Source: Siphonodentalium dalli
Taxonomy: Eukaryota; Mollusca; Scaphopoda; Gadilida; Siphonodentaliidae
NCBI GenBank assembly: GCA_032622095.1
Contig: CP136067.1
Location: 75,356,705-75,420,704 of the forward strand
DNA: 64,000 bases
Direction of reading: 5' to 3'
Shown: piece by piece, positions 3,985-62,296 of the stretch
How the letters are laid out: each line of letters begins with the position of its first letter
Numbering within the stretch: the first letter of the stretch is position 1
Position numbers and translations under genes: made by a program
The notes under the pieces: generated by a model
Told to the model about the DNA's origin: nothing
Database searches by the model: none
The model's input: the letters and a program-made list of their open reading frames with translations, nothing else

Positions 3985-5440
3985 GCGCAGAAATGCAATG
4001 AATGTACCAGGTATATTATTGAACCCACAGATGGACTTAAATCTATAACCTTGGTATAACTGCTCTATTTTATGGCTGATCTGGTTGGTCCTGTCACTGA
4101 GAATAATATTGTCCATCATGACCTGGAGTGTGGGGATGAGAGACCCTTGGGCCAGATATATGATCCAAGCGCCCAAATCTGTCAGTTTGTTCCATTCGGT
4201 AATTGCAGCTGGTAGGAAAGAATCCATATAATAAGTCATAGTTAATATTCGGGGGTAGTCTTATATGTTCAAATCTGAAGTTATATCTGGAATTGTTTGC
4301 CTGAATTGGTCGTACATAATTTCTTAAAATTGATGGAGCAGTTCCACTATCATTTATAAAAATTGGCATAGCTTGTGTTTTCTACGACGTGAGGAGAGGA
4401 GTTACCAGCCAGTTTATGATAAAAGACGCGCATTACTCGTACTGATGGTTGCACCTGTTACTATTCAGGCCATTTCGTCCTGAATCTTTTCAATGTCATC
4501 ACTAATATAATCAGGGCAGTTATCCCACACGGGAGGCATATTCCAGTATTGGTCGGATAAATGTGTTTTAATGTATTTTTTCAAGCATTACTCTGCATAG
4601 CATGTATCTACCGTATGTTTACGTGCTAAATTTACTTGACTCCATGCTATGGTCTGCAAGCATAGATCTGATGTGGATACTCCAAGAGCCCATATGTTAT
4701 CGAAAGTAAGTCCCAAAATTTACCAAATGTTTATGGCTGTCAACCTCGACAATTGTCGCAGTTCCGATGGTCAGATGTGGGTGATATACTGACCAGTGTT
4801 TCTTTCCTGGAGATTAAGAGGGCTTCCGTTTTCAGGGGATTGAATTTTACAAGCCATTCTGATGTCCAACACATCAATATAAATCAAAAATAGAAGGGGG
4901 CCTAATACCGAGCCTTGTGGGACACCAGCTGTTACATCTTGTAATTCCGAGTGTGTGCCATCTATGACAACTTGTTGTTGCCTACATTCAAGATACGATT
5001 TCATTAAGTTATACAAGTTTCCACTTATACCCACTTTTGTCAGTTTGTTCAAGAGGCCACGGTGCCAGACTTTATCAAACATTTTCCTTATGTCGCAGAA
5101 TATACACCGGACCTCTTTTCGGTCATCTGTTGATCAACATATATTGTCATATATTTTGGTAAGTTGGAAAACTGTTTAGTCATTGCACATGCAACCAGCT
5201 TGGTAAAATGATAGGAGTTTGTTTTCATCAAGAAATTCCCATAGATTTTTATAGATACATTTTTCATAGACCTTTGAGATGCAGCTTAGTAGGGAAATTT
5301 AATTTGATATAAGACTGGGATCACCGCTCTTGAATATAGGTGTAACATATTGGGAACGCTTCCACTGGGGTGGGTAGTAGCTGTTGAATATACTTATAAA
5401 GGCGACTTCAAATAGATCGGGCCCGGATTGAGTGGAACTT
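3985..5440 (-). pseudogene. Decayed non-LTR retrotransposon reverse transcriptase (CR1/Jockey/L2-like)
   Basis: On the minus strand, in order: a thumb-less N-terminal RT part near 5300-5440 (PPQWKRSQYVTPIFKSGDPS), [20 protein letters not shown] at about 5020-5080, [13 protein letters not shown] and [20 protein letters not shown] at about 4880-4990, then after a frame change a WLVKFNP-type segment near 4810-4860, a 'SHKHL' segment near 4730, and a C-terminal 'DSFLPAAITEWNKLT' at about 4180-4225. Stops and frameshifts are scattered throughout. The block between the PQG motif and WLVKFNP is missing, so the catalytic Y/FADD motif is lost. This is a dead copy lying in an intron of the ankyrin gene, antisense to it. 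No endonuclease domain was found. Confidence 0.85.
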
Positions 5441-29962: not shown

Positions 29963-30180
29963 TGCAACAAATAAATGAATTTGAGCCACGGATTAGTGCA
30001 AAATACACTCGTGTGCTCTGTGAACGATGCAAACAACATGATAATTATAATGAAAATGAATTTATGACTCCATGCAGTCATAAATTCATTTTCATTATAA
30101 TTACCATGTTGTTTGCATCCTTCATAGAGCACACAAGTGTATTTTGCACTAATCCATGGCTCAAATTCATTCATTTATAT
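29963..30180. repeat. Large hairpin with ~105-bp arms
   Basis: Left arm 29963-30069 ('gaatttgagccacggattag ... gaaaatgaatttatgac') and right arm 30078-30180 are inverse copies with a few mismatches, separated by about 8 bp. The right arm is the first ~100 bp of the duplicated segment. The second copy at 35931 begins with the right arm only. Confidence 0.9.
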
Positions 30181-32695
30181 ATTTTCATTTACATTACTTT
30201 TATGGCATGAAAGATATTTAAAATTTCACTGTTTTCAGTTACCAAGAACATCTGTAAAATATATTTTAATCAAAAGCTCATTATTTTCATTAGAAAGGCA
30301 ACTACCTCAATGGTATTTAAATTCGCGCAGTATCCGTCGGTGCGCGAAGTTAAAACTGAGCGGAGTTTAGACCAAACCACAGGGAAACGAGAAGGCTATA
30401 TAATATCGACGAGTTACATATACATTGCGGAAGGTTGGACCGACTATTAAGCGTTTATGACTATAATTTACTTGCGGGCAACCACGTGTAAACCATTAAT
30501 GATATGTACATGTATGACGTAATTATATAGCAACAAATCATGGTAACATCATTGATGTTGAAATACTTGTGAAAAATACACATATTGCAGGCTGAAGATG
30601 CACGAAAGCACGTTGCCCTATTCACAACGCTGACGTGACATCGTGACCATACCGCCTGTGTTAGTTGATATGTCAATACAACACACCGCCAACTTTTGAT
30701 TTTTTCTTATGAAAGTTTTCTATATGTGGTTGCAGGTTCATCTAAATTATGTTTATAACTATTTCAATATCAGAATAATTATATGGAGCGTATAGACACC
30801 AGTCTTCACAACACATATTGATGATGCAGTTATGTTATATTTATGCACGATGTAAAGCCGTCGATCGTGATGGTGTTTAATATGCACACATATCTTCATT
30901 GACGATAAAGATCTCAAACTGTCATCAAATCCATTTACGAAAATAGTTTTGTCAGTTTTGAATTCACGCAGCTAGGTGCGCTTATTCAAAACTGAGCGAA
31001 AAATAGTATTGCGCGAATTTCCATACGAGTAAGGTACCCGTAAATAATTTTCTATTCTAAATTTATGAATTATTTTCATGTCATGCCTGTTGATCAATGA
31101 ATAATAGGGCTCAGATGAGTTGTGGGTCATGGACCATAACCAAGTTGAAGCTGCACCACCATATCTCTTAACACTGTGGTCGTATTCTAGTTGATTGCTC
31201 CTTGCTTGAGTGGACCACACTGCATATCAACATTTGTTTTCATTGTTTGTGACTGCTTTATTCTTCATTATAGTTTTTGGGGGTATGATGCTATATTATG
31301 CAATTAAAAATCTAACTCAACATGATACAAATGAAGCCTCCTCTCTTAGAGCCAAGACAATAAACTATTTGGTGATAGGTTTTACATAGAGATGTGTAAA
31401 TCAATCTAGTGGGTTCGACTAATATTTTGAGGACACCTGGTTATCATATCGCCACGAAGAAACAGATGTTTTAAGAAATGTCCAGGTGGGCCTCTGTTCG
31501 TGGTGCTATACTGGCTAATTATTCGCAGCTTAAAATAATTGTATCAGCTACATGTGCCCGACACTGATCGATATTTTAAGTTGTTCTAAAAATGAAAGAA
31601 ATCCTCTGTAACTGGCAGATGTACCCTTGTCATATATGCCAGTATAGGAGAACCGTGAAAAGTCATAATTATGCTACTGACTGTGTTTTCTTTTATCTCA
31701 GAAAAAAACTAAATTTGACTGCACGATGTGACCACTATTTTTGAACAGGCCTATACATTTCCATCTCTCTTGATAAATTGTATCTTTTTTGGACAATATC
31801 TTGAACAGGAATGACTCAATTTTATTATAATACATGAGAACATGCCATCCTTTTGGCGGTTCAATTGAGGTCCCTCGTTTTGCAAGCAAGAATATATGTA
31901 TCTCTTAAATAGAATGACAAATAAACTTTAAATGTTTCTTCTTTTATATGCTGGCTCACTATATGAATGCCCTGATTCCCGTCCCCATATAAATATGAAA
32001 TTTGTGAAGATATAATTGTTCAAGTGACTTAATTCGATCACCATTTGTCAAGGTTGTGAAATTAGAACGAATTATGGAGATATCTATATTTAACATTGGT
32101 GGATATCGGCGACTAAAACATTCTTATGAATGCTATATTGCTCCTCCACTCTCCATCCCTGACCTAAATGCACCAAGATGTGCCGTTGTTTAACGCACGT
32201 GATTTGATTCCTCGTCTCATGGAGAAGAACTGCGTGTATGAATTTAGTGGAAATAAGTGCTAACACATTTGTATCAGCTTTGGTGCCCCCCCCCCTGACT
32301 CGAACGGCGCCATATCATAGAGATGATTATGCATAAGTTTGGTGGAATCAGCGACAGATATATTTAATAATTTTTGCTGCCCTCCCATGTTCTACCCCTG
32401 ACAACTGCGTCACTTTAGAAAATTTAAACCACACCATTATCTTCCTCGTAAAAAGTTACCCCTGTCAGACCCATTTTGTGCCATCTAGATGGTCCCACAT
32501 GAAGTTCTATAGAACAGACAGACGATCGCAGATGTAGGCACCAAAGGTGGCGTCTATATAACACACGATTTGATTCATCGTATCATTGGAGAAGAACGTG
32601 TATGGATTTGGTGGAAATTGGCGCTAAGCATACTTTTTATCAGTTTTTGTGACCCTCCCCTCCCTATCCCTGAATCAAGCGAAGCCACTTCACTG

Positions 32696-32850
32696 CATGA
32701 AAAGCGAGATTTATAAAATATAAATTTATGTCGCATAAATTTAGGACCCTAAATTTATGCATGCATTTATGCATATTAAATTCGCCTTTATACAAAAATA
32801 TAAATCTCGCATTTATATTTTTAAATCCCGCATAAATGTCGCATTAATTT
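32696..32850. repeat. AT-rich palindromic cluster (copy 1; copy 2 at 38561-38715)
   Basis: Short interleaved inverses such as 'tataaatttatg', 'cataaattta', 'tttatgcatgcatttatgca' and 'cgcataaatgtcgcat' occur within 150 bp. No coding content. Confidence 0.7.
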
Positions 32851-33359
32851 CGCTCATTACTGTAACCAACGGCGGGTTTAATTCTTGGCCCATAATTTAA
32901 TTACTACCATGTGGATATGTGAGACATGTATCATTAACACGAGCTAACGGCTGGATACAGGTTTCTTTGTCTGCGAACAACGCTGATGCGAAGACGTGTG
33001 TGAATAAGATGGGAACTCATTTTACCAAGGGTAAGTTAACACATATGTGGCTATGAAATGAAGGTATTTCACAATTTATGTTGCCGATTCATTCTTTCAT
33101 CAATTCGCAGCGTGATCGACACATGTCAAAATTAATATTTGATTATACAGAGACGTCGGAATAAGGTTATTCTATCGCGTGAAAATGTGGTTTTGTGAGA
33201 GTGATTCCACCCTTAGCCAGATCGCAAATAAAATGCCGTACATTACAATTAAATATTTTGCTAAACAGGCTAAAATATCGCGTAAAATGTGGAGTTGGAA
33301 GCGAGATTTCACCCTTGGCTATGCAATTCATTGTACAATATATCCATGATGTAATCCGG

Positions 33360-34640
33360 TTTTGAAGTTTAATCGCGTAAAATTGCAATTGTGTGTCATG
33401 GAAGGGTGATATCACCCTTTGCCAGCATAACATATAAATTCATTGTACAATATATCCATGATGTAATCCCGTTTTGAAGTTATAATCGTATAAAACTGTG
33501 ATCATGGAAGGGTGATATCACCCTTTGCCATTTCACATATAAATTAATTGTACAATATATCCATGATGTAATCCCGGTTTCGAAGTTTTAATCGCGTAAA
33601 CTTGTGGTCATGGAAGGGTGGTATCAGTGTCACCCTTTGCCATATCGCATATAAATCAATTGTACAGTAAGTCCATGATGCAATCCCGTTTTGAAGTTTG
33701 AATCGCGTAAAATTGCAATTGTGGTCATGGAAGGGTGATATCACCCTTTGCCAGCATCACATATAAATTCATTGTAAAATATATCCATGATGTAATCCCG
33801 TATTGAATATTATAATCGTATAAAATTGTGATCATGGAAGGGTGATATCACCCGTTGCCATTTCACATATAAATTCATTGTGCAATATATATCCATGATG
33901 TAATCCCGTTTCGAAGTTTTAATCGCGTAAAATTGTGGTCATGGAAGGGTGATATCAGTGTCACCCTTTGCCATATCGCATATAAATCAATTGTACAGTA
34001 AGTCCATGGTGCAATCCCGTTTTGAAGTTTGAATCGCGTAAAATTGCAATTGTGGTCACGGAAGGGTGATATCACCCTTTGTCAGCATCACATATAAATT
34101 CATTGTACAATATATCCTGATGTAATCCCGTTTTGAATATTATAATCGTATAAAATTGTGATAATGGAAGGGTGATATCACCCTTTGCCATTTCACATAT
34201 AAATTCATTTTGCAATATATCCATGATGTAATCCCGTTTCGAAGTTTTAATCGCGTAAAATTGTGGTCATGGAAGGGTGATATCAGTGTCACCCTTTGCC
34301 TTATCACAAATAAATCAATTGTACAGTAAGTCCATGATGCAATCCCGTTTTGAAGTTTGAATCGCGTAAAATTGCCATTGTGGTCATGGAAGGGTGATAT
34401 CACCCTTTACCATATCACATATAAATCCATTGTACAGTAAATCCATGATGTAATCCCGTTTTGAAGTTTGAGTAGAGTAAAATTTTGGTGATGGAAGCGT
34501 GATATCACGCTTTGCCATATCGCATATAAATTCATTGTACAATAAATCAGTGGTGTAACACAATTTTGAAGTTTTAATCCCGTAAAGTTGTTGCCTTGAA
34601 GGGCGATATCACTCTTTAGCAGAAAACAAAAATTCTTATT
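33360..34640. repeat. Satellite array with palindromic core, copy 1
   Basis: About twelve monomers of 105-117 bp. Each carries GGGTGATATCACCC (perfect palindrome) or a variant; cores start near 33404, 33510, 33616, 33733, 33840, 33948, 34064, 34170, 34275, 34392, 34497 and 34606. Every third core is the interrupted form GGGTGATATCAGTGTCACCC, so the higher-order period is about 330 bp. Minus-strand open frames (repeated ISPFHDHN...) are by-products. Confidence 0.9.
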
Positions 34641-34959
34641 TTAGTTTGTTTATACTTATTTTCGATGTGATCACTTAATTATTTAATTTTTATTCTTTAT
34701 TGTAGAGACTACGAAAATTGACGACGGCAAGATACAACCATGATACAAAGTGCTACGTTCAAGTTGTTATATTTGTGACTGGTATAACCAACAATAGGGC
34801 AGCATGTTGATGGCAAATTACTACACATGGAGATACCAGAATCGGGGCGACACATATGTATATGTATAGTTAGATATACACATCAGTGTCGCCATATATG
34901 CTGGTTACAAGCCAAATGTCACCCTAAAGTATATTTCACAAATATATATATGGATATAT

Positions 34960-35400
34960 ATGTTCAAATCCAAATTTATACCGGGTATAAATGTGGATAG
35001 ACTATAGTTTATAGCCAGAATGAATGTAGCTACATATATTTATGCAGGTTTATTCCGTGAATAACTTGTATAAATTTGAGTTTATAACCAGAATAAATGT
35101 AACTACATACATTTATGCAACTTTATTCAGTGAATAAATTTGTATTTATGCATAAAAGGTAGACAATAAATGAATGCATAAACGTGCGAATAAATGCTAG
35201 TTTATCCTGCTGAATAAATGCGGGTTTATTCACTGAATAAATTGAGTATAAATGTCGGCCTTTATTCATGAATAAATTGTGAATAAATGTGCATAAATTT
35301 CCGGATTTATGCACCTTTATTCAGTGAATAAATTTCTGATTTATCCAGATTTATGCACATTTATCCGGAATTTATGCAATGAATAAATTCCAGTTTTCAT
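34960..35400. repeat. Cluster of TTTATTCA-n-TGAATAAA palindromes
   Basis: 'tttattcagtgaataaa' near 35122 and 35319, 'tttattcactgaataaa' near 35226 and 'tttattcatgaataaa' near 35263 are mixed with 'tttatgca' and 'gaataaatg' words. Copy 2 carries the same cluster, split by the transposon at 41117. Confidence 0.8.
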
Positions 35401-38400
35401 GCAGTGCCTTTGTCATCTTTAAACAACACCAATAGACTCATTATGAAGATGACTATATATAAAATTGGTGGAAATCGGCGACTAACTAAATTCGTATCAA
35501 ATTTAGTGCCCCATTTCTCACCCAAACGGCACCAATTTGGCGTGTACCATATTATTAGATTCATTGTATCACGAAGATGAATATGTAACAATTTGGTGGA
35601 AATCGGCGCTAAAATAGTTGTTATCAGTTTGGTGCCCCTCTCCCCATCCGTGCTCCCCTATTTCGAACGGAGCTACTTTTGACATCTTTAAACCACACCA
35701 CTAGATCCGCCATAGCATGGAGATCATTATGAACAAGAAAACCATAGTCAGAAATGGTAACGCCACCAAGATCATATTATTAGCCATAAATATAAATTAT
35801 AATATAATTATAATATAAACTAGCTTTCAAATTCCATGTGGGAAATTTGGATACTTCCAGAAAATGTACCACGTTTTCCCGTTTCTCGTGTTATACATTA
35901 CATTCTTCAAGCTGTCTCGCTTTTTATTACATAAATTCATTTTCATTATAATTACCATGTTGTTTGCATCCTTCATAGAGCACACAAGTGTATTTTGCAC
36001 TAATCCATGGCTCAAATTCATTCATTTATATATTTTCATTTACATTACTTTTATGGCATGAAAGATATTTAAAATTTCACTGTTTTCAGTTACCAAGAAC
36101 ATCTGTAAAATATATTTTAATCAAAAGCTCATTATTTTCATTAGAAAGGCAACTACCTCACTGGTATTTAAATTCGCGCAGTATCCGTCGGTGCGCGAAG
36201 TTAAAACTGAGCGGAGTTTAGACCAAACCACAGGGAAACGAGAAGGCTATATAATATCGACGAGTTACATATACATTGCGGAAGGTTGGACCGACTATTA
36301 AGCGTTTATGACTATAATTTACTTGCGGGCAACCACGTGTAAACCATTAATGATATGTACATGTATGACGTAATTATATAGCAACAAATCATGGTAACAT
36401 CATTGATGTTGAAATACTTGTGAAAAATACACATATTGCAGGCTGAAGATGCACGAAAGCACGTTGCCCTATTCACAACGCTGACGTGACATCGTGACCA
36501 TACCGCCTGTGTTAGTTGATATGTCAATACAACACACCGCCAACTTTTGATTTTTTCTTATGAAAGTTTTCTATATGTGGTTGCAGTTTTACTTCTTTGG
36601 GTTCATCTAAATTATGTTTATAACTATTTCAATATCAGAATAATTATATGGAGCGTATAGACACCAGTCTTCACAACACATATTGATGATGCAGTTATGT
36701 TATATTTATGCACGATGTAAAGCCGTCGATCGTGATGGTGTTTAATATGCACACATATCTTCATTGACGATAAAGATCTCAAACTGTCATCAAATCCATT
36801 TACGAAAATAGTTTTGTCAGTTTTGAATTCACGCAGCTAGGTGCGCTTATTCAAAACTGAGCGAAAAATAGTATTGCGCGAATTTCCATACGAGTAAGGT
36901 ACCCGTAAATAATTTTCTATTCTAAATTTATGAATTATTTTCATGTCATGCCTGTTGATCAATGAATAATAGGGCTCAGATGAGTTGTGGGTCATGGACC
37001 ATAACCAAGTTGAAGCTGCACCACCATATCTCTTAACACTGTGGTCGTATTCTAGTTGATTGCTCCTTGCTTGAGTGGACCACACTGCATATCAACATTT
37101 GTTTTCATTGTTTGTGACTGCTTTATTCTTCATTATAGTTTTTGGGGGTATGATGCTATATTATGCAATTAAAAATCTAACTCAACATGATACAAATGAA
37201 GCCTCCTCTCTTAGAGCCAAGACAATAAACTATTTGGTGATAGGTTTTACATAGAGATGTGTAAATCAATCTAGTGGGTTCGACTAATATTTTGAGGACA
37301 CCTGGTTATCATATCGCCACGAAGAAACAGATGTTTTAAGAAATGTCCAGGTGGGCCTCTGTTCGTGGTGCTATACTGGCTAATTATTCGCAGCTTAAAA
37401 TAATTGTATCAGCTACATGTGCCCGACACTGATCGATATTTTAAGTTGTTCTAAAAATGAAAGAAATCCTCTGTAACTGGCAGATGTACCCTTGTCATAT
37501 ATGCCAGTATAGGAGAACCGTGAAAAGTCATAATTATGCTACTGACTGTGTTTTCTTTTATCTCAGAAAAAAACTAAATTTGACTGCACGATGTGACCAC
37601 TATTTTTGAACAGGCCTATACATTTCCATCTCTCTTGATAAATTGTATCTTTTTTGGACAATATCTTGAACAGGAATGACTCAATTTTATTATAATACAT
37701 GAGAACATGCCATCCTTTTGGCGGTTCAATTGAGGTCCCTCGTTTTGCAAGCAAGAATATATGTATCTCTTAAATAGAATGACAAATAAACTTTAAATGT
37801 TTCTTCTTTTATATGCTGGCTCACTATATGAATGCCCTGATTCCCGTCCCCATATAAATATGAAATTTGTGAAGATATAATTGTTCAAGTGACTTAATTC
37901 GATCACCATTTGTCAAGGTTGTGAAATTAGAACGAATTATGGAGATATCTATATTTAACATTGGTGGATATCGGCGACTAAAACATTCTTATGAATGCTA
38001 TATTGCTCCTCCACTCTCCATCCCTGACCTAAATGCACCAAGATGTGCCGTTGTTTAACGCACGTGATTTGATTCCTCGTCTCATGGAGAAGAACTGCGT
38101 GTATGAATTTAGTGGAAATAAGTGCTAACACATTTGTATCAGCTTTGGTGCCCCCCCCCCTGACTCGAACGGCGCCATATCATAGAGATGATTATGCATA
38201 AGTTTGGTGGAATCAGCGACAGATATATTTAATAATTTTTGCTGCCCTCCCATGTTCTACCCCTGACAACTGCGTCACTTTAGAAAATTTAAACCACACC
38301 ATTATCTTCCTCGTAAAAAGTTACCCCTGTCAGACCCATTTTGTGCCATCTAGATGGTCCCACATGAAGTTCTATAGAACAGACAGACGATCGCAGATGT

Positions 38401-39224
38401 AGGCACCAAAGGTGGCGTCTATATAACACACGATTTGATTCATCGTATCATTGGAGAAGAACGTGTATGGATTTGGTGGAAATTGGCGCTAAGCATACTT
38501 TTTATCAGTTTTTGTGACCCTCCCCTCCCTATCCCTGAATCAAGCGAAGCCACTTCACTGCATGAAAAGCGAGATTTATAAAATATAAATTTATGTCGCA
38601 TAAATTTAGGACCCTAAATTTATGCATGCATTTATGCATATTAAATTCGCCTTTATACAAAAATATAAATCTCGCATTTATATTTTTAAATCCCGCATAA
38701 ATGTCGCATTAATTTCGCTCATTACTGTAACCAACGGCGGGTTTAATTCTTGGCCCATAATTTAATTACTACCATGTGGATATGTGAGACATGTATCATT
38801 AACACGAGCTAACGGCTGGATACAGGTTTCTTTGTCTGCGAACAACTCTGATGCGAAGACGTGTGTGAATAAGATGGGAACTCATTTTACCAAGGGTAAG
38901 TTAACACATATGTGGCTATGAAATGAAGGTATTTCACAATTTATGTTGCCGATTCATTCTTTCATCAATTCGCAGCGTGATCGACACATGTCAAAATTAA
39001 TATTTGATTATACAGAGACGTCGGAATAAGGTTATTCTATCGCGTGAAAATGTGGTTTTGTGAGAGTGATTCCACCCTTAGCCAGATCGCAAATAAAATG
39101 CCGTACATTACAATTAAATATTTTGCTAAACAGGCTAAAATATCGCGTAAAATGTGGAGTTGGAAGCGAGATTTCACCCTTGGCTATGCAATTCATTGTA
39201 CAATATATCCATGATGTAATCCGG

Positions 39225-40505
39225 TTTTGAAGTTTAATCGCGTAAAATTGCAATTGTGTGTCATGGAAGGGTGATATCACCCTTTGCCAGCATAACATAT
39301 AAATTCATTGTACAATATATCCATGATGTAATCCCGTTTTGAAGTTATAATCGTATAAAACTGTGATCATGGAAGGGTGATATCACCCTTTGCCATTTCA
39401 CATATAAATTAATTGTACAATATATCCATGATGTAATCCCGGTTTCGAAGTTTTAATCGCGTAAACTTGTGGTCATGGAAGGGTGGTATCAGTGTCACCC
39501 TTTGCCATATCGCATATAAATCAATTGTACAGTAAGTCCATGATGCAATCCCGTTTTGAAGTTTGAATCGCGTAAAATTGCAATTGTGGTCATGGAAGGG
39601 TGATATCACCCTTTGCCAGCATCACATATAAATTCATTGTAAAATATATCCATGATGTAATCCCGTTTTGAATATTATAATCGTATAAAATTGTGATCAT
39701 GGAAGGGTGATATCACCCGTTGCCATTTCACATATAACTTCATTGTGCAATATATATCCATGATGTAATCCCGTTTCGAAGTTTTAATCGCGTAAAATTG
39801 TGGTCATGGAAGGGTGATATCAGTGTCACCCTTTGCCATATCGCATATAAATCAATTGTACAGTAAGTCCATGGTGCAATCCCGTTTTGAAGTTTGAATC
39901 GCGTAAAATTGCAATTGTGGTCACGGAAGGGTGATATCACCCTTTGTCAGCATCACATATAAATTCATTGTACAATATATCCTGATGTAATCCCGTTTTG
40001 AATATTATAATCGTATAAAATTGTGATAATGGAAGGGTGATATCACCCTTTGCCATTTTACATATAAATTCATTGTGCAATATATCCATGATGTAATCCC
40101 GTTTCGAAGTTTTAATCGCGTAAAATTGTGGTCATGGAAAGGTGATATCAGTGTCACCCTTTGCCTTATCACAAATAAATCAATTGTACAGTAATTCCAT
40201 GATGCAATCCCGTTTTGAAGTTTGAATCGCGTAAAATTGCCATTGTGGTCATGGAAGGGTGATATCACCCTTTACCATATCACATATAAATCCATTGTAC
40301 AGTAAATCCATGATGTAATCCCGTTTTGAAGTTTGAGTAGAGTAAAATTTTGGTGATGGAAGCGTGATATCACGCTTTGCCATATCGCATATAAATTCAT
40401 TGTACAATAAATCAGTGGTGTAACACAATTTTGAAGTTTTAATCCCGTAAAGTTGTTGCCTTGAAGGGCGATATCACTCTTTAGCAGAAAACAAAAATTC
40501 TTATT
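39225..40505. repeat. Satellite array with palindromic core, copy 2
   Basis: The duplicate of 33360-34640 at offset 5865, with the same order of monomer types and a handful of substitutions (for example the core near 40140 reads AGGTGATATCAGTG). Confidence 0.9.
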
Positions 40506-41116
40506 TTAGTTTGTTTATACTTATTTTCGATGTGATCACTTAATTATTTAATTTTTATTCTTTATTGTAGAGACTACGAAAATTGACGACGGCAAGATAC
40601 AACCATGATACAAAGTGCTACGTTCAAGTTGTTATATTTGTGACTGGTATAACCAACAATAGGACAGCATGTTGATGGCAAATTACTACACATGGAGATA
40701 CCAGAATCGGGGCGACACATATGTATATGTATAGTTAGATATACACATCAGTGTCGCCATATATGCTGGTTACAAGCCAAATGTCACCCTAAAGTATATT
40801 TCACAAATATATATATGGATATATATGTTCAAATCCAAATTTATACCGGGTATAAATGTGGATAGACTATAGTTTATAGCCAGAATGAATGTAGCTACAT
40901 ATATTTATGCAGGTTTATTCCGTGAATAACTTGTATAAATTTGAGTTTATAACCAGAATAAATGTAACTACATACATTTATGCAACTTTATTCAGTGAAT
41001 AAATTTGTATTTATGCATAAAAGGTAGACAATAAATGAATGCATAAACGTGCGAATAAATGCGAGTTTATCCTGCTGAATAAATGCGGGTTTATTCACTG
41101 AATAAATTGAGTATAA

Positions 41117-42642
41117 GGGCGCGTACACATGGCCAGCAAGAAAATATCAGGTATGCCCCATGTGACTTACTTGACCAATGAAATAAATAATACCGGAAAA
41201 TATCCGACGAAGGCAGCGCGCTGATATTTTATCGCCAATTGGTGATATGTGTTCACCTTGATAGGTGGCCATCGGTATCCGTTAACTAATCTCGCGGGGA
41301 TATGATCGTAACAATTCAAGCGCTCGAGTTATGATCCATCAATAGTATCGTCTGTTTCAACATACGACGTGTTTCCATTTTTTATTGGTTGTCAGAACCG
41401 CTGATGTATTATATATATGCATGTATATACGTGTGTGCAGAGACGTGACGACAGGGGGGGTTGGGGGTGTCCCACCCCCCAACTTTGGTCAAAATTTTCA
41501 ACAGTTGGAAATTGCATACCTGCCAAAACATTAGTTGGAAATTTCACACCAACAATAGGTTGAAAATGTTCTTGTATAGTTTGATTTTCAAAAAAAAACT
41601 TGGGGGAATTAATTTTTTTGGACCAATATTTGCATATTTTCCTATTTTTGGTAAAAAAATATGGTCTGAAATGGTTATCAGTTGGAAACTTTCCAACCTC
41701 ATGCAGGGGGTGACAGGTTGGAAATTTCCAACACTTGGAAAGCTTGTGTCCTGGTCCCTCCCCCATGGCCAGTCAAAAGTAAAAAACTGCTAGTTAATTT
41801 AAGAAAACAATATTGTCATACATTTGGTCAACATTGTCATTGGAATTGTCATCAGTTGTAAATTTTCCAACCTAAGTGGGGTGTCAGGTTTGAAATTTCC
41901 AACTCTATGAATGCTTGAGGATAGTCTAGATGGTAGGATTTTGCGATTTTCTTGTTAAGATTACAAAATTTTCGCATACCGGACCGAACCATGGTCTAAT
42001 ATTAGGTCTAAGAGCACTGAGGTGCAAGGGGTGCAAATGGAATTATAGAAAACTTGTGTTTGGTATGATTCTGATTCAAGGGGGGGGGGGGTGGTGCAGT
42101 TGGAATTTCCCAAGGTGGACAGACCCCAACGGAAACCCTCTAGCCACGTCCCTGTGTGTATGGGGATGCTTTATAATTTGGTACCTCACATGCCTTGACT
42201 TAGTTGTTTTACTTTAATTTGGACTGTATGTACGTTTCGAATAAGAAATTGTTGGCGGCTCCTCGCTCTTCTCGCATATGGGATGTGGCCCAGGGCCGAA
42301 CACACCAACGTCTGTTTAGATGTCGTTTCGTGTGTTCATGAAGAACACACATCCCTACTCCAACGACGAGGGCGCGTTCCTTTCTCGTTAAAATAGGTGG
42401 CATTTTAAATATTCCATAACACTTTATAACTCTATGAATATTCGATATGGACTATAGGTTGTTTGTCCGCAGTAATTCACTTCAACAAACACGACTAACA
42501 CTAGTCACATTGAGCTCAATCAACGCCATATAACCCGCCGCTTTCTCACGGGCGTAATCTTTGCAGCAAGAAAATATCAGAGTACAATTGTACCTGATAT
42601 TTTCTTGCAGATATTTTCTTGCAGCTTCATGTGTACGCGCCC
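41117..42642. mobile_element. PIF/Harbinger-type non-autonomous transposon with TAA duplication
   Basis: TAA at 41114-41116 and 42643-42645 flanks inverted ends GGGCGCGTACACATG and CATGTGTACGCGCCC. Extended inner matches are 'agcaagaaaatatcag' near 41140 and repeated 'gatattttcttgcag' near 42595. The unoccupied site GAGTATAAATGTC is preserved at 35245-35257 in the other duplicate. A 3-bp TAA/TTA target and GGGC-starting ends are typical of PIF/Harbinger. It is 1,526 bp with no transposase frame. 41450-41960 contains sequence related to 1380-1560 (runs of 'ttggaaatttc' and poly-G). Confidence 0.9.
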
Positions 42643-43373
42643 TAAATGTCGGCCTTTATTCATGAATAAATTGTGAATAAATGTGCATAAATTTCCGGAT
42701 TTATGCACCTTTATTCAGTGAATAAATTTCTGATTTATCCAGATTTATGCACATTTATCCGGAATTTATGCAATGAATAAATTCCAGTTTTCATGCAGTG
42801 CCTTTGTCATCTTTAAACAACACCAATAGACTCATTATGAAGATGACTATATATAAAATTGGTGGAAATCGGCGACTAACTAAATTCGTATCAAATTTAG
42901 TGCCCCATTTCTCACCCAAACGGCACCAATTTGGCGTGTACCATATTATTAGATTCATTGTATCACGAAGATGAATATGTAACAATTTGGTGGAAATCGG
43001 CGCTAAAATAGTTGTTATCAGTTTGGTGCCCCTCTCCCCATCCGTGCTCCCCTATTTCGAACGGAGCTACTTTTGACATCTTTAAACCACACCACTAGAT
43101 CCGCCATAGCATGGAGATCATTATGAACAAGAAAACCATAGTCAGAAATGGTAACGCCACCAAGATCATATTATTAGCCATAAATATAAATTATAATATA
43201 ATTATAATATAAACTAGCTTTCAAATTCCATGTGGGAAATTTGGATACTTCCAGAAAATGTACCACGTTTTCCCGTTTCTCGTGTTATACATTACATTCT
43301 TCAAGCTGTCTCGCTTTTTATTACACCAGCTGGAGGGCCCGACTTCGTCCGGGTTGTTCCCATGAATTCCAGC

Positions 43374-43566: not shown

Positions 43567-43699
43567 AACAAAAGTGCCATCAATATGAGGGTAGGTCCGT
43601 ATGGCAAGCCGTTTTCACATTTTCGATTGATTTGAACTTAAGTCCAATTATTTGGACTTAAGTCCAAATCATTGGACTTAAGTACAAATAATTGGACTT

Positions 43700-43880
43700 A
43701 AGTCCAAATAGCGAATTGTACTTAGGTCCAAATACCACATAATTGTGAATTCGGCGAGGAATTGTACTTAAGTCCAAATGAATTACACTTAAGTCCAAAT
43801 ACCGATATTTTCATCTATTTGGACTTAAGTCCAATTCCTCGCCGAATTAACAATTATGTGGTATTTGGACTTAAGTACAA
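43700..43880. repeat. Inverted repeat within the left palindrome block
   Basis: 'accacataattgtgaattcg' plus 'gcgaggaatt' is mirrored by 'aattcctcgc' plus 'cgaattaacaattatgtggt', so the left block is itself a hairpin with palindromes along both arms. Confidence 0.85.
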
Positions 43881-44539
43881 TTCATTTGGACTTAAGTCCA
43901 ATTCATATGTATAAGAAACGCCCCCATCATATATTAAGCAGGTCTGGTTTTGCTCATAGGGCGGAGTTGTGGGAAAATGGCCGTATATCGATAATAATGT
44001 TACCAGAGTCCGACCAGGTAGATAAAATACCACCCCTTGCTCTTTATAAATTTAACCTGATAAAAAAGTTACAACTTATGTACAGGGTCCACACTCGATC
44101 GAGGCTGCATGCACTAATGGAATTATGGCTGCTAATTTGTTTATATATAAAGCGTATGTTAACACTGATTCTGAGCAATATATAATGTAAATTATTTTTG
44201 CAATTTCCTTCTGACCAAGCTAATTGATGCAAAGAAGTCTCTGTATAGAATAGATTGACAAAGTTAACCGAGGCTGTGCTTCACGCAGTCATTACAATAG
44301 CAATAGAAGGGGAGTCACTCTAATCTGTTGTTTTGGCATAATTCGACTTTCGAATACACCCTTATTACATTGAGTTTGAAAACCGAGCAAATTATACAAA
44401 TAAGACACTTAGTAAATGCAATAAACGAAACTGCGTGTAGCCTACACTACATGCTGTCAAATAACAATTGAATCAAGTCGTGAATTAATTTTACTTCATT
44501 CATGCATGCAGTTAGCATTTATTAAGATGCCAATTCGGA

Positions 44540-44718
44540 TTCGAAACATTTTCAATCTCGGCATGCCGAAACAAGCCACGTGGCAAAGGGGACGTACGGA
44601 GTTAGTCTTGGAGTCAGGAATGCCCTGGTTAGTACGGAGTTTGACTGTCAATCAAAACCTGCAGGAATATACCATTACAAAGAAGGGGACTATCGTTTCA
44701 AACCAGATGAATTGGACT
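44540..44718 (+). other. Coding-like fragment inside the palindrome element
   Basis: One frame reads VAKGTYGVSLGVRNALVSTE, then FDCQSKPAGIYHYKEGDYRF and KPDELD before entering the palindrome array. Its composition (Gly, Tyr, Asp, balanced charge) looks more protein-like than other frames here, but there is no start codon, splice site or recognised family. It could be a captured exon or chance. Confidence 0.25.
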
Positions 44719-45211
44719 TAAGTCCAAATGAATTGGACTTAAGTCCAAATGAATTCACTAATTGGACTTAAGTCCAAATAAGGGTGTATTCGAAAGTCCA
44801 ATTATTGGACTTAAGTCCAATTATTTGGACTTAAGTCCAATTATTTGGACTTAAGTCCAATTATTTGGACTTAAGTCCAATATTTGGACTTAAGTCCGAA
44901 TCAATTCGCTAATTGGACTTAAGTCCAATTAATTTGGACTTAAGTCCAATTCATTTGGACTTAAGTCCAATTATTTGGACTTAAGTCCAAATAATTGGAC
45001 TTAAGTCCAAATAATTGGACTTAAGTTCAAATCAATCAAAAATGTGAAAACGGCTTGCCATAGGTCAGTACTATTGAAGAACCCTGCTCATTCAGCCAAA
45101 CTGACCTGGAAAAAGTTCTCAATGAGCAAAGTAGATACATTATACTTGCAGAAAAAAGCCGCATTGCCACACACTTGTGTGTATATTACTAGTTAACTCG
45201 GTTTGTTCGCC

Positions 45212-52857: not shown

Positions 52858-54112
52858 ATGGTTATATGTAACTAAACACCCCTGGTGTATAAATAGGTTT
52901 ATCCATAACTTAACCTTAACTCCTATTGACATATCACCTCTTGTTTTCATTGATTTGGATGGGTAGAGAGCTAGCCCATGCAGGCCAACTTCTTTATCAA
53001 AATGACTGACTCGCAATAATATCACCTTCTGTTTTAGTTGGAGCGACTCGTGATAGCATTATATTATCTTCGGTATATATTAGTTGGGGCTACTCGCAAT
53101 AGCATTACTTTCTGTATTAGTCGAGGCGACTTTGATTTTTCTTCAATTTTCGAGTACACAGGCACACCATATGAGGGAAGCAAGCCCTCTGTGACACCAC
53201 ATTCACACTATATGGCCATGGAAATACTATAGATTTGTGCAAGAGATACTGATTTAATAAAAAAAACTAGAGCTCGAGGACTGAGACACCAAAGCTCCAG
53301 GAATGAGACACAAATTTTTTGGACAGGGATGCTGATAATATGAAAATATGGTCCCCCCCCTGATTTAAGTCAATAAGTAAACCATATGAGGTAAGCAAGC
53401 CCTCATGCAATGATATCACATGCATGCTATAGTATATGACCATAGTAATGGCCAAAATCTGTGCAAAAATACATTAAAATCATCATATAAAAAATTACTA
53501 GAGTTCCGGGAAGGAGACATCAATTCTTTGGATATAGGGATGCTGATAATATGTAATTAGGGATTATCATTGTTGAACACATAGGCCCTACCGATACTCT
53601 CAGTTGACTCTTGAGTACTCAGGCTAATTCAAAGAGGTTAAAATTAGCCCAATATGCTCCCCTTGTGTTGCTATGTGATACACCAGGTCATGCCAATAGT
53701 TTATGGGTAGGTTATACACTCTTAGAACCAGAAGTCCTTCCGAGAACCCAAAAAGGTTCTTCACCTTGTCACAATAGGAGCACCTTATTTGGTGCTTCGA
53801 AGGACCCCATCATAAGGTTCTACTGAAGAACCATATCATAAGGTTCAACAGAAGAACACCAAGATGGTTCTTAAAGGAACCATACTATGAACATGGTTCT
53901 TCATGGAACCTTTATAAGAACCCCAGATGGTACTTCGGAGCACAGGAGCTTGGAATTTGGTCAAAACCACTCTTTTATTGGCGGAACCACCACCCGGGAC
54001 CAAAGGTCACGGAAGGAACGAAACAGAAAATTGTTGCCACCTATTTTGAACTCAACTGTATTCCTACAAAAAATATATTTTCACTAAAAACTTTTGGTAC
54101 CTCTTACACCTT
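52856..54112 (+). repeat. Giant inverted repeat, left arm
   Basis: It runs from ATGGTTATATGTAACTAAAC to 'tacctcttacacctta' and is inverted at 56912-58172 with only a few differences (a C/G homopolymer differs by about 4 bases). It includes 53700-53950, rich in 'gaaccataaggttc' and 'ggttcttcatggaacc' palindromes. No protein-like frame; open frames appear as mirror pairs in both arms. Confidence 0.95.
53700..53950. repeat. Cluster of short GGTTCT...AGAACC palindromes
   Basis: 'aggttcttcacc', 'aggttctactgaagaacc', 'aaggttcaacagaagaac', 'atggttcttaaaggaacc' and 'atggttcttcatggaacc' follow each other about every 20-30 bp. The inverted copy is at about 57075-57325. Confidence 0.85.
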
Positions 54113-54413
54113 AGATGCCAATCTACAACATTCCATAGGTATATTTTTCCAGTTCTTCGAAAACCTCACTTTATTTCGGTAATGTATTGTAAATTCACCA
54201 ACGAACACAAATCTGCGACACCTACATCACCCGTTCTAGAATCTGAATGACAAATGGCACAAAACCATTTTTCCGGAATAACAAAGTCGGAACGAAATAA
54301 AATCGAAACCTAAATTTAAAGCCCGCGAAATTCAAAAATATTTGAAAGTGCGTGCGGTTTTCGAACTTAGGCGCCAGAAAACTTAAATCTGTTTATGTTT
54401 GCGTCATACTATG
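54113..54413 (+). repeat. 303-bp direct repeat, copy 2
   Basis: The same sequence as 52555-52857; both end at 'gcgtcatactat' and then diverge. The first ~135 bp are part of the inverted arm. Confidence 0.95.
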
Positions 54414-56776: not shown

Positions 56777-58172
56777 TCAGATTCTAGAACGGGTGATGTA
56801 GGTGTCGCAGATTTGTGTTCGTTGGTGAATTTACAATACATTACCGAAATAAAGTGAGGTTTTCGAAGAACTGGAAAAATATACCTATGGAATGTTGTAG
56901 ATTGGCATCTAAGGTGTAAGAGGTACCAAAAGTTTTTAGTGAAAATATATTTTTTGTAGGAATACAGTTGAGTTCAAAATAGGTGGCAACAATTTTCTGT
57001 TTCGTTCCTTTCGTGACCTTTGGTCCCGGGTGGTGGTTCCGCCAATAAAAGAGTGGTTTTGACCAAATTCCAAGCTCCTGTGCTCCGAAGTACCATCTGG
57101 GGTTCTTATAAAGGTTCCATGAAGAACCATGTTCATAGTATGGTTCCTTTAAGAACCATCTTGGTGTTCTTCTGTTGAACCTTATGATATGGTTCTTCAG
57201 TAGAACCTTATGATGGGGTCCTTCGAAGCACCAAATAAGGTGCTCCTATTGTGACAAGGTGAAGAACCTTTTTGGGTTCTCGGAAGGACTTCTGGTTCTA
57301 AGAGTGTATAACCTACCCATAAACTATTGGCATGACCTGGTGTATCACATAGCAACACAAGGGGAGCATATTGGGCTAATTTTAACCTCTTTGAATTAGC
57401 CTGAGTACTCAAGAGTCAACTGAGAGTATCGGTAGGGCCTATGTGTTCAACAATGATAATCCCTAATTACATATTATCAGCATCCCTATATCCAAAGAAT
57501 TGATGTCTCCTTCCCGGAACTCTAGTAATTTTTTATATGATGATTTTAATGTATTTTTGCACAGATTTTGGCCATTACTATGGTCATATACTATAGCATG
57601 CATGTGATATCATTGCATGAGGGCTTGCTTACCTCATATGGTTTACTTATTGACTTAAATCAGGGGGGGGGGGAACCATATTTTCATATTATCAGCATCC
57701 CTGTCCAAAAAAATTGTGTCTCATTCCTGGAGCTTTGGTGTCTCAGTCCTCGAGCTCTAGTTTTTTTTATTAAATCAGTATCTCTTGCACAAATCTATAG
57801 TATTTCCATGGCCATATAGTGTGAATGTGGTGTCACAGAGGGCTTGCTTCCCTCATATGGTGTGCCTGTGTACTCGAAAATTGAAGAAAAATCAAAGTCG
57901 CCTCGACTAATACAGAAAGTAATGCTATTGCGAGTAGCCCCAACTAATATATACCGAAGATAATATAATGCTATCACGAGTCGCTCCAACTAAAACAGAA
58001 GGTGATATTATTGCGAGTCAGTCATTTTGATAAAGAAGTTGGCCTGCATGGGCTAGCTCTCTACCCATCCAAATCAATGAAAACAAGAGGTGATATGTCA
58101 ATAGGAGTTAAGGTTAAGTTATGGATAAACCTATTTATACACCAGGGGTGTTTAGTTACATATAACCATGAA
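56777..58172 (-). repeat. Giant inverted repeat, right arm (with partial 303-bp repeat)
   Basis: 56777-56911 is the inverse of 54113-54247, and 56912-58172 is the inverse of 52856-54112. Near identity across about 1.39 kb. The arm ends at CATATAACCAT. Confidence 0.95.
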
Positions 58173-60676: not shown

Positions 60677-61047
60677 TAATGTAATTGTGTCAGCTGGCAT
60701 GACATTTTCAAACGTCCTTGCCAGGCAGTGGTACCGCATTAAAATTGTTGTGCCAGTGTTTGGACTACCGCTGTATAGCCTACATGTATACCGTTTTTTA
60801 AAGACACTGCGCGCATGTCGCCTATAATATTTATCCGATTGCAGTGGCTACAGGTTAACTGGTGTGAATATTCATCACATCGCTTTGAAAAATCACCTAG
60901 TAACGATGACCAGAATTTTAAACTGTGTTTTGTGTGAGATTTTATTGTTGCGGAACTCGCTAACTGCAATTCGTTTGTGATCACATATTGAGTGATCTAT
61001 TGAGATAAAGGTAACAAAACATTAAAAGTGGTGTTTAGTGGTATTGG
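60677..61047. promoter_or_regulatory. Upstream region of the zinc-finger gene
   Basis: The interval between the TA-flanked element and the ATG must contain the proximal promoter if the gene is single-exon. No clear TATA box, initiator or CpG island was seen. The call is positional. Confidence 0.3.
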
Positions 61048-61764
61048 ATGGCTGCTCGGGAAAATTTCGATGGAGCACATCCGTACGAAGTTGGTGAGAC
61101 GTATCTGTGCGGTGTGTGTGGAGATTCATTCACAAGTACAAAACAAATCGAGAATCATATGTCATCTCACACAGAAACAGAAACACACAGGACTAGCTTG
61201 TGCTCAGAAACCACAATTCGACCATACTCCTCTTCAGATCAAGCTGGATATTGTAATCCCGGAAGTTCATCTGATAATATCACTGATATTCATGTTCGTA
61301 ACCTGGTTGGGCTATTTGACAACGGAAATATAAAAATTGGTGATATACTGGCGAGTACTGAGAAATTCAATAATAATAATGGGCTAACAGGGAAATTAAT
61401 TAAATGTCCAATGTGCCCACGTGTCTTTGGTAGCCGTGGTGCACTACAAGCTCATGAGAGGAGACATTCTCGAATTCGACATCATAAGTGCGACACATGT
61501 GGGAAATTGTTCTCTGACCGGAGCGGACTTGCGAGACACTTGCTCATCCACGCAGGAACAAAGGATCATAAATGTGGTGTATGCACAAAATCATTCACTT
61601 TACCACATCAGCTGGTTGAACATGCCAGGACACATACCAAGCTCAAACCATTCAGATGTGACTTGTGTCCTCAGGAATATTCACATTCAAACACTCTCAG
61701 GAGACATAAAATGAAAGCTCATCCAGGGTATTCTAACAATAATGTGATGCATCTTTCATTATGA
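61048..61764 (+). CDS. C2H2 zinc-finger protein with five fingers, single exon
   Basis: The open frame is 238 codons. The start is supported by an in-frame TAG at 61036-61038, 12 nt upstream. Five C2H2 fingers are visible: C21-C24-H37-H41, then C120-C123-H136-H140, C148-C151-H164-H168, C176-C179-H192-H196, and C204-C207-H220-H225 (the last with H-x4-H spacing). Fingers 2-5 are closely spaced, although the linkers (for example THTKLKPF) only partly match the TGEKP consensus. Finger 1 is isolated by a Ser/Asn-rich linker of about 79 residues. There is no KRAB, BTB or ZAD domain. The likely role is as a nuclear sequence-specific DNA-binding protein. AATAAA at 61958-61963 is a plausible poly(A) signal. 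No splice is needed, but an upstream 5'UTR exon cannot be excluded. Its orthologue is not recognised. Confidence 0.9.
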   Translation: MAARENFDGAHPYEVGETYLCGVCGDSFTSTKQIENHMSSHTETETHRTSLCSETTIRPYSSSDQAGYCNPGSSSDNITDIHVRNLVGLFDNGNIKIGDILASTEKFNNNNGLTGKLIKCPMCPRVFGSRGALQAHERRHSRIRHHKCDTCGKLFSDRSGLARHLLIHAGTKDHKCGVCTKSFTLPHQLVEHARTHTKLKPFRCDLCPQEYSHSNTLRRHKMKAHPGYSNNNVMHLSL

Positions 61765-62154
61765 TGTAACAGGTTCTTGTTTGTTCAGAGCGGCAGTTGT
61801 CACATTGCAAGCATGCATGCAGTAATTCAGGGTTTCCGCACTACAGGGGCAGCATGTCTCTTTCCACTCACACAAATTCCCCCTCTGACATATTCCCCTA
61901 CCTGCAGCATGATCCACAGATTAATGCCTATATCATATGCCTGTGTATCTGCCACTAAATAAAACCAGCAGGGAATGAAAAACGAAGACAATTTGATTGG
62001 CCACTAAACACCGATCACTAGTGACCATTTTGCAAGAAAAGAATGCTATTCTGGGCAACACACATTGAAAATAATTGCCGCATTCTCAAAGATATCGAAG
62101 CGGACAAAAAGTCACATACTTGATTGTGCCTGGTTTCATTGCAATTACGTTCGG
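61765..62154. other. 3'UTR and intergenic sequence
   Basis: The 3'UTR probably runs to about 61980. A 61-codon frame here has no protein character. Confidence 0.45.
61958..61963 (+). terminator. Candidate poly(A) signal of the zinc-finger gene
   Basis: AATAAA lies 194 nt after the stop codon of the zinc-finger gene on the same strand. Distance and orientation fit a short 3'UTR. The hexamer is common in AT-rich DNA, so this is suggestive only. Confidence 0.45.
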
Positions 62155-62296
62155 GAGATAAATATACTCTGTTGAGTTGGATATTCAGCTATTCGAGCAT
62201 GAAAACATTTTGTGAATGAAACGGCTTGCCGACGAGTTAACTGTTTTCATGGTCGAATCCCGGAATATCCAACTCAACGGGGTATGTTTATCTCCA
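62155..62296. mobile_element. Hairpin MITE, about 140 bp
   Basis: 'ggagataaatatactctgtt' with 'gagttggatattc' is mirrored by 'gaatatccaactcaac' with 'ggggtatgtttatctcc'. Inner 'cattcgagcatgaaaac'-type and 'gttttcatggtcgaat' arms also pair. Confidence 0.75.

Follow-up and report, generated by a model that had tools for sequence, protein, structure and literature searches.

A candidate Mutator-like Foldback element whose sub-terminal arrays are built from a 16-bp palindrome

What kind of element carries, a short distance inside both of its ends, dense arrays of one and the same palindrome? The question is raised by a 1,459-bp element with inverted-repeat ends at positions 43602-45060 of the 64-kb window (the whole stretch of DNA that was analysed, which is probably animal DNA, with a GC content of 37.6% and many repeats). 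A preliminary description of this DNA had proposed an element of this length with terminal inverted repeats, and this is borne out. The terminal inverted repeats, 108 bp each (left, 43602-43709, + strand; right, 44953-45060, − strand), are identical at 103 of 108 positions, and each holds four palindromes at exact 20-bp spacing. Their 20-bp tips are identical and are the sole two matches to this sequence in the window at up to 3 mismatches; the end sequence of the element at both tips is TGGCAAGCCGTTTTCACATT. The outermost 10 bp, TGGCAAGCCG, at 43602-43611 (+ strand) and with the same letters at 45051-45060 (− strand), can be read as an imperfect dyad in which positions 2-9, 3-8 and 4-7 pair, nucleotides 5 and 6 are unpaired and 1-10 is mismatched. 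Three such pairs have a probability of 1 in 64 by simple arithmetic and could be chance.

The element is known from its one copy in the 64-kb window, where neither a further copy nor an empty site of it was seen. Outside the element, 5 sequences in the window come close (up to 3 mismatches) to the first 14 nt of the tip, versus 4.55 expected from 20 resampled sequences, and are therefore chance occurrences. One tip-like pair in opposite orientation, at 60695 (+) and 62218 (−), about 1.5 kb apart, was rejected as a relative of the element: its 40-nt ends agree at 13 of 40 positions and its flanks carry no duplication. The second member of this pair (62218-62231), like the other near-matches no commoner than chance, sits inside an imperfect 142-bp hairpin (76%) at 62154-62295, which holds GAAACGGCTTGCCG, two mismatches from the element tip. 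An exact search for a palindrome pair and for the 20-bp tip gave 0 matches each in viral and prokaryotic contig collections, where zero is expected for an animal element and which are uninformative on its copy number in the host.

The palindrome, TTGGACTTAAGTCCAA, is 16 bp long and occurs 24 times in the window at up to 3 mismatches, with all 24 copies inside the element. Chance expectation is 0.41 copies, and 24 copies were reached in 0 of 100 shuffles; at up to 4 mismatches there are 29 matches in the window, the five extra ones scattered outside the element. The copies form a left sub-terminal array (43632-43901) of 10 palindromes, 4 of them perfect, and a right sub-terminal array (44712-45030) of 14, of which 12 are perfect, and they occupy 59% and 70% of the length of the two blocks, respectively. 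With 16 of the 24 copies exact, the preliminary count of about 24 CTTAAG-centred palindromes, many exact, filling both sub-terminal blocks is confirmed. The same description had five consecutive copies at exactly 20-bp spacing, which does not hold: the longest exact run is four copies, seen three times (43632-43692, 44805-44865 and 44955-45015), and in the middle run a fifth copy follows after 19 bp. The 22 within-array spacers comprise nine of 4 bp, five of 5 bp, one of 3 bp and seven of 8-30 bp; the 15 that measure 3-5 bp place copies 19-21 bp apart from start to start, and the tandem units that TRF detects in the arrays measure 20-21 bp. At both ends of the element the outermost palindrome starts exactly 30 bp from the tip, which links the array to the element ends, and at either end this copy carries the identical single deviation TTGAAC.

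Deviations across the 24 copies amount to 10 of 384 positions, and seven of the ten affect the second G or the C that pairs with it, a single symmetric position (TTGNACTTAAGTNCAA). Conservation continues just outside the palindrome, with A at −2 in 22 of 24 copies and T at +2 in 23 of 24, and with these flanking letters the dyad measures about 20 bp. Judged from the letters, a two-fold binding site that tolerates change at one position would vary in this way, and the likeness among copies overstates constraint because they share ancestry by duplication. The preliminary suggestion that the spacing is near two helical turns fared unevenly. The 24 centres are significantly in phase at 10.0 bp per turn (R=0.56, p~0.0005) but not at 10.5 (R=0.28, p~0.15) or 10.25 (p~0.21), and the left block alone shows non-significant phasing at all three values.

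Repeats within both blocks show that the arrays grew by duplication. The left array contains an inverted repeat of 67-nt arms, 43713-43779 (+) and 43817-43883 (−), 96% identical, which makes 43713-43883 a long hairpin when folded single-stranded. In the right array, a 49-nt segment at 44733-44781 (+) has a second copy at 44884-44932 (92% identity), and TRF finds a period of 150 across 44710-45030, the trace of a duplication of about 150 bp. Single-strand folding is strong in both arrays (z −22.35 and −27.65), a trivial consequence of their palindromic make-up. Between duplicated segments, mismatches affect 4 of 128 positions inside palindromes versus 8 of 98 outside, a difference that is not significant (Fisher p=0.13). 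This sum covers three pairs (I1, which takes in flanking TA, I4 and D4) and omits two overlapping pairs (I2, with 1/64 inside and 2/12 outside; I11, with 1/32 and 1/15).

The flanks bear on the class of the element. The sequences immediately outside it, TAGGTCCGTA on the left (43592-43601, + strand) and TAGGTCAGTA on the right (45061-45070, + strand), form a direct repeat identical at 9 of 10 positions at length 10, a probable target-site duplication, and at each length from 3 to 9 the flanks share at most 3 matching positions. A match this good at any length from 3 to 12 arose in 86 of 200,000 random TA/TA pairs drawn from the window (~4e-4) and in 47 of 200,000 unconstrained random pairs; at the separation given by the element length, 7 of 62,517 window positions match at 9/10 or better, the element site among the seven. 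The element had been described as TA-flanked, and TA is indeed present at both edges, but the description is incomplete, as the TA is the edge of the 9/10 match over 10 bp. On the letters of the flanks, a target duplication of 10 bp that later acquired one mutation appears a better reading than TA only, which is unlikely. The one mismatch agrees with the inverted repeats of the element having diverged from each other by a few percent.

Several families have target sites unlike this one. The target of piggyBac is TTAA, which is absent at the element, where the flanks read CGTA and TAGG. PIF/Harbinger elements duplicate a 3-bp TWA, and the flanks here match at 0 of 3 positions at that length; hAT and P superfamily duplications are 7-8 bp long, lengths at which 1 of 7 and 0 of 8 flank positions agree. 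Families that target TA alone find their TA here, yet embedded in the longer flank match. ATon elements, which have terminal inverted repeats and insert between an A and a T without making a longer duplication, measure <500 bp (PMC3422177); a flanking A and T are present at our element, but the 10-bp flanking repeat and the 1,459-bp length argue against membership. MULE target duplications are reported to measure 8-11 bp, together with unusually long inverted repeats (PMC6446971), or 8-10 bp with inverted repeats >100 bp (PMC5225508). The flanking repeat at this single site, at 10 bp with nine identical, lies within the 8-11 bp range, and the 108-bp ends (103/108) reach the length typical of MULE inverted repeats.

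The internal region (43902-44711) is without recognised coding capacity. Six of the 18 stop-to-stop frames of at least 35 aa that overlap the element were compared with Pfam, and none scored above the curated cut-off. All 22 stop-to-stop frames of at least 110 aa that are closed within the window are without a MULE match in Pfam, the only curated matches among them being a reverse transcriptase (4771-5133, − strand) and C2H2-type zinc-finger models (61039-61764, + strand). Searches of Rfam at gathering scores and for tRNAs returned 0 matches each.

The neighbourhood is itself repetitive. Four matches to CGTGACGGAATCAC (up to 2 mismatches; one with 1 mismatch) lie at 43373, 43552, 45211 and 45233, all in one orientation and within about 230 bp of the palindrome element, on both sides of it; the element may have landed inside another repeat. 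A tandem duplication of about 5.85 kb (30079-43325), which stops 276 bp to the left of the element, consists of copies at 30079-35931 and 35930-43325 that are 99.5-100% identical apart from a 1,526-bp insertion; it could be real or an assembly product. The insertion is an element at 41117-42642 with tips GGGCGCGTACACATG and CATGTGTACGCGCCC and TAA on both sides, and its empty site, gagtaTAAatgtcgg, is preserved in the other copy of the duplication at 35244-35258, so that both the insertion and the 3-bp duplication it made can be seen directly. By duplication length, we take this element to be Harbinger-like. Motifs GAATAAAT and ATTTATTC are dense, in both orientations, at 35091-35388, 40956-41107 and 42664-42782 (18 of the 25 in the window), a cluster that the 1,526-bp element splits in the second copy. 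Tandem arrays at 33325-34617 and 39190-40482 have a unit of about 111 bp and a higher period of 328, and many of their units hold the perfect palindrome AGGGTGATATCACCCT or a variant of it, seven being perfect per array copy. An inverted pair of segments of about 1.39 kb, 99.6% identical, occupies 52858-54246 and 56777-58169, and the second of these adjoins a lone palindrome, TTGCGCTTAAGCGCAA, which has the core CTTAAG as in the element.

So, what is the palindrome element? On balance, we consider it probable that it is a non-autonomous cut-and-paste transposon of the MULE/Foldback type, mobilised in trans, with dyads that dock transposase dimers. The inverted repeats, the end-linked array and the 10-bp flanking repeat with its one mismatch are observed. 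The superfamily is drawn from duplication length and end design, the same reasoning by which Tetris, a non-autonomous Foldback element of Drosophila virilis, was placed in Mutator on its 8-10 bp duplications and Foldback design (PMC4079207). In design, the ends correspond to those of Foldback and Muta1-like elements, which have a tip motif and tandem sub-terminal repeats; here the 20-bp-spaced array begins 30 bp from the tips. Against this reading count the one copy, the mismatch in the duplication, and the 8-9 bp duplications of all 14 of 14 MULE families in the mosquito Aedes aegypti (PMC5225508).

The way such an element would work can be outlined as a model. A transposase encoded elsewhere in the genome would move it in trans, and the element tips would be the cleavage ends. 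Each 16-bp palindrome, or about 20 bp with the A at −2 and the T at +2, would probably dock one dimer of the DNA-binding part of the transposase, and the 10 left and 14 right sites would raise local concentration and specificity and aid the pairing of ends. By analogy with Galileo and with piggyBac/piggyBat, we propose that a dimer may dock on each dyad and that the arrays would help to find and pair the ends. The preliminary interpretation as a transposon with sub-terminal dyad arrays stands; its further reading as a binding array is a prediction, and among conceivable uses of the dyads protein binding is the most plausible. A more specific version, which we regard as possible though doubtful, is that the arrays are a platform for tiling, on whose 20-bp two-fold units transposase dimers would line up at 20-bp steps into a filament that pairs the ends. 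If true, this would make a Mutator-like/Foldback array built on a dyad and not on a directional repeat, an architecture for which no counterpart was found in open-licence papers among the matches listed.

Other explanations differ in what they make of the dyads or of the superfamily. The dyads could be by-products of array growth, through slippage, unequal exchange or inter-arm conversion of hairpin-prone palindromes, and bind no protein, an account that is compatible with any superfamily. The strong single-strand folding of both arrays is in its favour, as are the 67-nt inverted repeat and the duplication of about 150 bp, by which copies spread, and the lack of a significant difference in conservation inside and outside the palindromes. 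We find it somewhat unlikely given the symmetric 30-bp placement, the near-invariance of seven of the eight symmetric positions and the conserved flanking A and T, the weight of which shared ancestry inflates. Two-fold sites are suited to dimeric DNA-binding proteins of any kind, and the arrays could instead serve regulation or silencing by binding a host dimeric factor such as a nuclear receptor or a homeodomain protein; as they lie at both ends with inverted symmetry, which is what end recognition predicts, this is very unlikely.

The superfamily could also be another one. A TA-targeting element, Tc1/mariner-like or ISL2EU-like, with inverted repeats expanded to a palindromic array would account for the TA at both edges, but it is unlikely, since the further flank agreement, 9/10 in total, would then be a coincidence of about 4e-4 and the tip, TGGCAAGCC, differs from the usual start of Tc1/mariner ends. 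The element could also be Foldback-like but belong to a different superfamily, for example to P, as Galileo does, or depend on an undescribed transposase; the poor agreement of the flanks at lengths 7 and 8, those of Galileo/P and hAT, makes this quite unlikely. Both have precedents: direct repeats and palindromes make up the 355-bp inverted repeats of Mcmar, a nematode mariner (as cited in PMC3169594), which shows that the mariner group can evolve such ends, Galileo (P) has Foldback-like repeats bound at several sites by a THAP domain (PMC3688188), and Foldback-like ends occur with different transposase classes (PMC3169594). Finally, a plain satellite or tandem repeat with no link to transposon ends, the case that the preliminary description had itself set against its reading, would explain the TRF units of 20-21 bp. 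It is hardly credible here, where all 24 copies (up to 3 mismatches) lie inside the element within 1.4 kb, in two blocks equidistant from matching tips, with none elsewhere in the 64 kb.

Returning to the reading as a Mutator-like Foldback element, how new is its design? The preliminary statement that no named family has this design was too strong, as Muta1 and Tm1 have ends of a similar kind (PMC5225508, PMC3169594). These Mutator-like/Foldback elements have 8-9 bp duplications and long composite inverted repeats, in which a short terminal motif is followed by units of 12-14 bp. The design class is already known, and the fully dyadic repeat unit is the new, unusual part: a sub-terminal array with a perfect 16-bp palindromic unit was not found in open-licence papers among the matches listed, and the element's own letters had no match in that literature.

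Muta1, a Foldback type 2 element of Aedes aegypti, has 145-bp inverted repeats that start with a 10-bp imperfect palindrome, in which the 5th and 6th nucleotides are unpaired, and continue in a sub-terminal part of nine 12-bp repeats with 3-4 bp spacers; short sub-terminal tandem repeats occur in 10 of 12 long-repeat MULE families of that mosquito (PMC5225508). Our element resembles it in having inverted repeats >100 bp and a sub-terminal array of short repeats with mostly short spacers. Its tip TGGCAAGCCG could also be read like the 10-bp dyad of Muta1, the end of which was compared by its description and not by its letters, although the three pairs may be chance. The non-autonomous derivatives of Muta1, with unrelated interiors, are a further likeness (PMC5225508). 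The repeats of Muta1, however, are nine 12-bp units, not called palindromic in the available text, with 8-9 bp duplications, whereas the element has 10 and 14 dyads of 16 bp and a 10-bp flanking repeat.

Tm1, a Mutator/Foldback element of the Phantom subclass in root-knot nematodes, has between 1 and 9 consecutive units, mostly of 14 bp, per composite repeat, duplications that are commonly 9 bp, MITE-like members, and, in one member, a gene for a MULE transposase of Phantom type (PMC3169594). In the unit consensus printed for Tm1, CGATTCAGTATCGC, we read CGAT and ATCG as inverted arms, and the unit is only partly dyadic; the Tm1 tips are asymmetric 7-bp motifs, and the sequences differ from those of our element. 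Tetris likewise has no conserved reading frame, but its inverted repeats hold tandem repeats, TIR-220, and the word palindrome is absent from the available portion of the paper (PMC4079207). MuTAnT of Medicago, Mutator-like and Foldback-shaped, has modular inverted repeats, TA-rich sites and 9-bp duplications (PMC4486113). Because MuTAnT inserts in TA-rich sites, the TA at the edges of our element is no argument against a MULE; MuTAnT differs in targeting TA microsatellites and in that a palindrome array is absent from its description as available.

The proposed role of the dyads has models outside Mutator. The long inverted repeats of Galileo contain repeats with sites for its THAP-domain transposase, although Galileo belongs to another superfamily, and three binding sites were found in a 1.2-kb inverted repeat (PMC3688188). 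The same source, in 2013, described a binding-site function for the tandem repeats in Foldback and Phantom elements as untested. In piggyBac/piggyBat, palindromes near the ends are bound by a dimer of the cysteine-rich domains of the transposase, and piggyBat differs in having three palindromes at its left end and none recognised at its right; sub-terminal sequences of piggyBat are reported to be inhibitory (PMC11707139). The near-invariant two-fold unit described here makes the element an unusually easy case for asking whether such arrays enhance end pairing, inhibit, as reported for piggyBat, or are by-products of growth.
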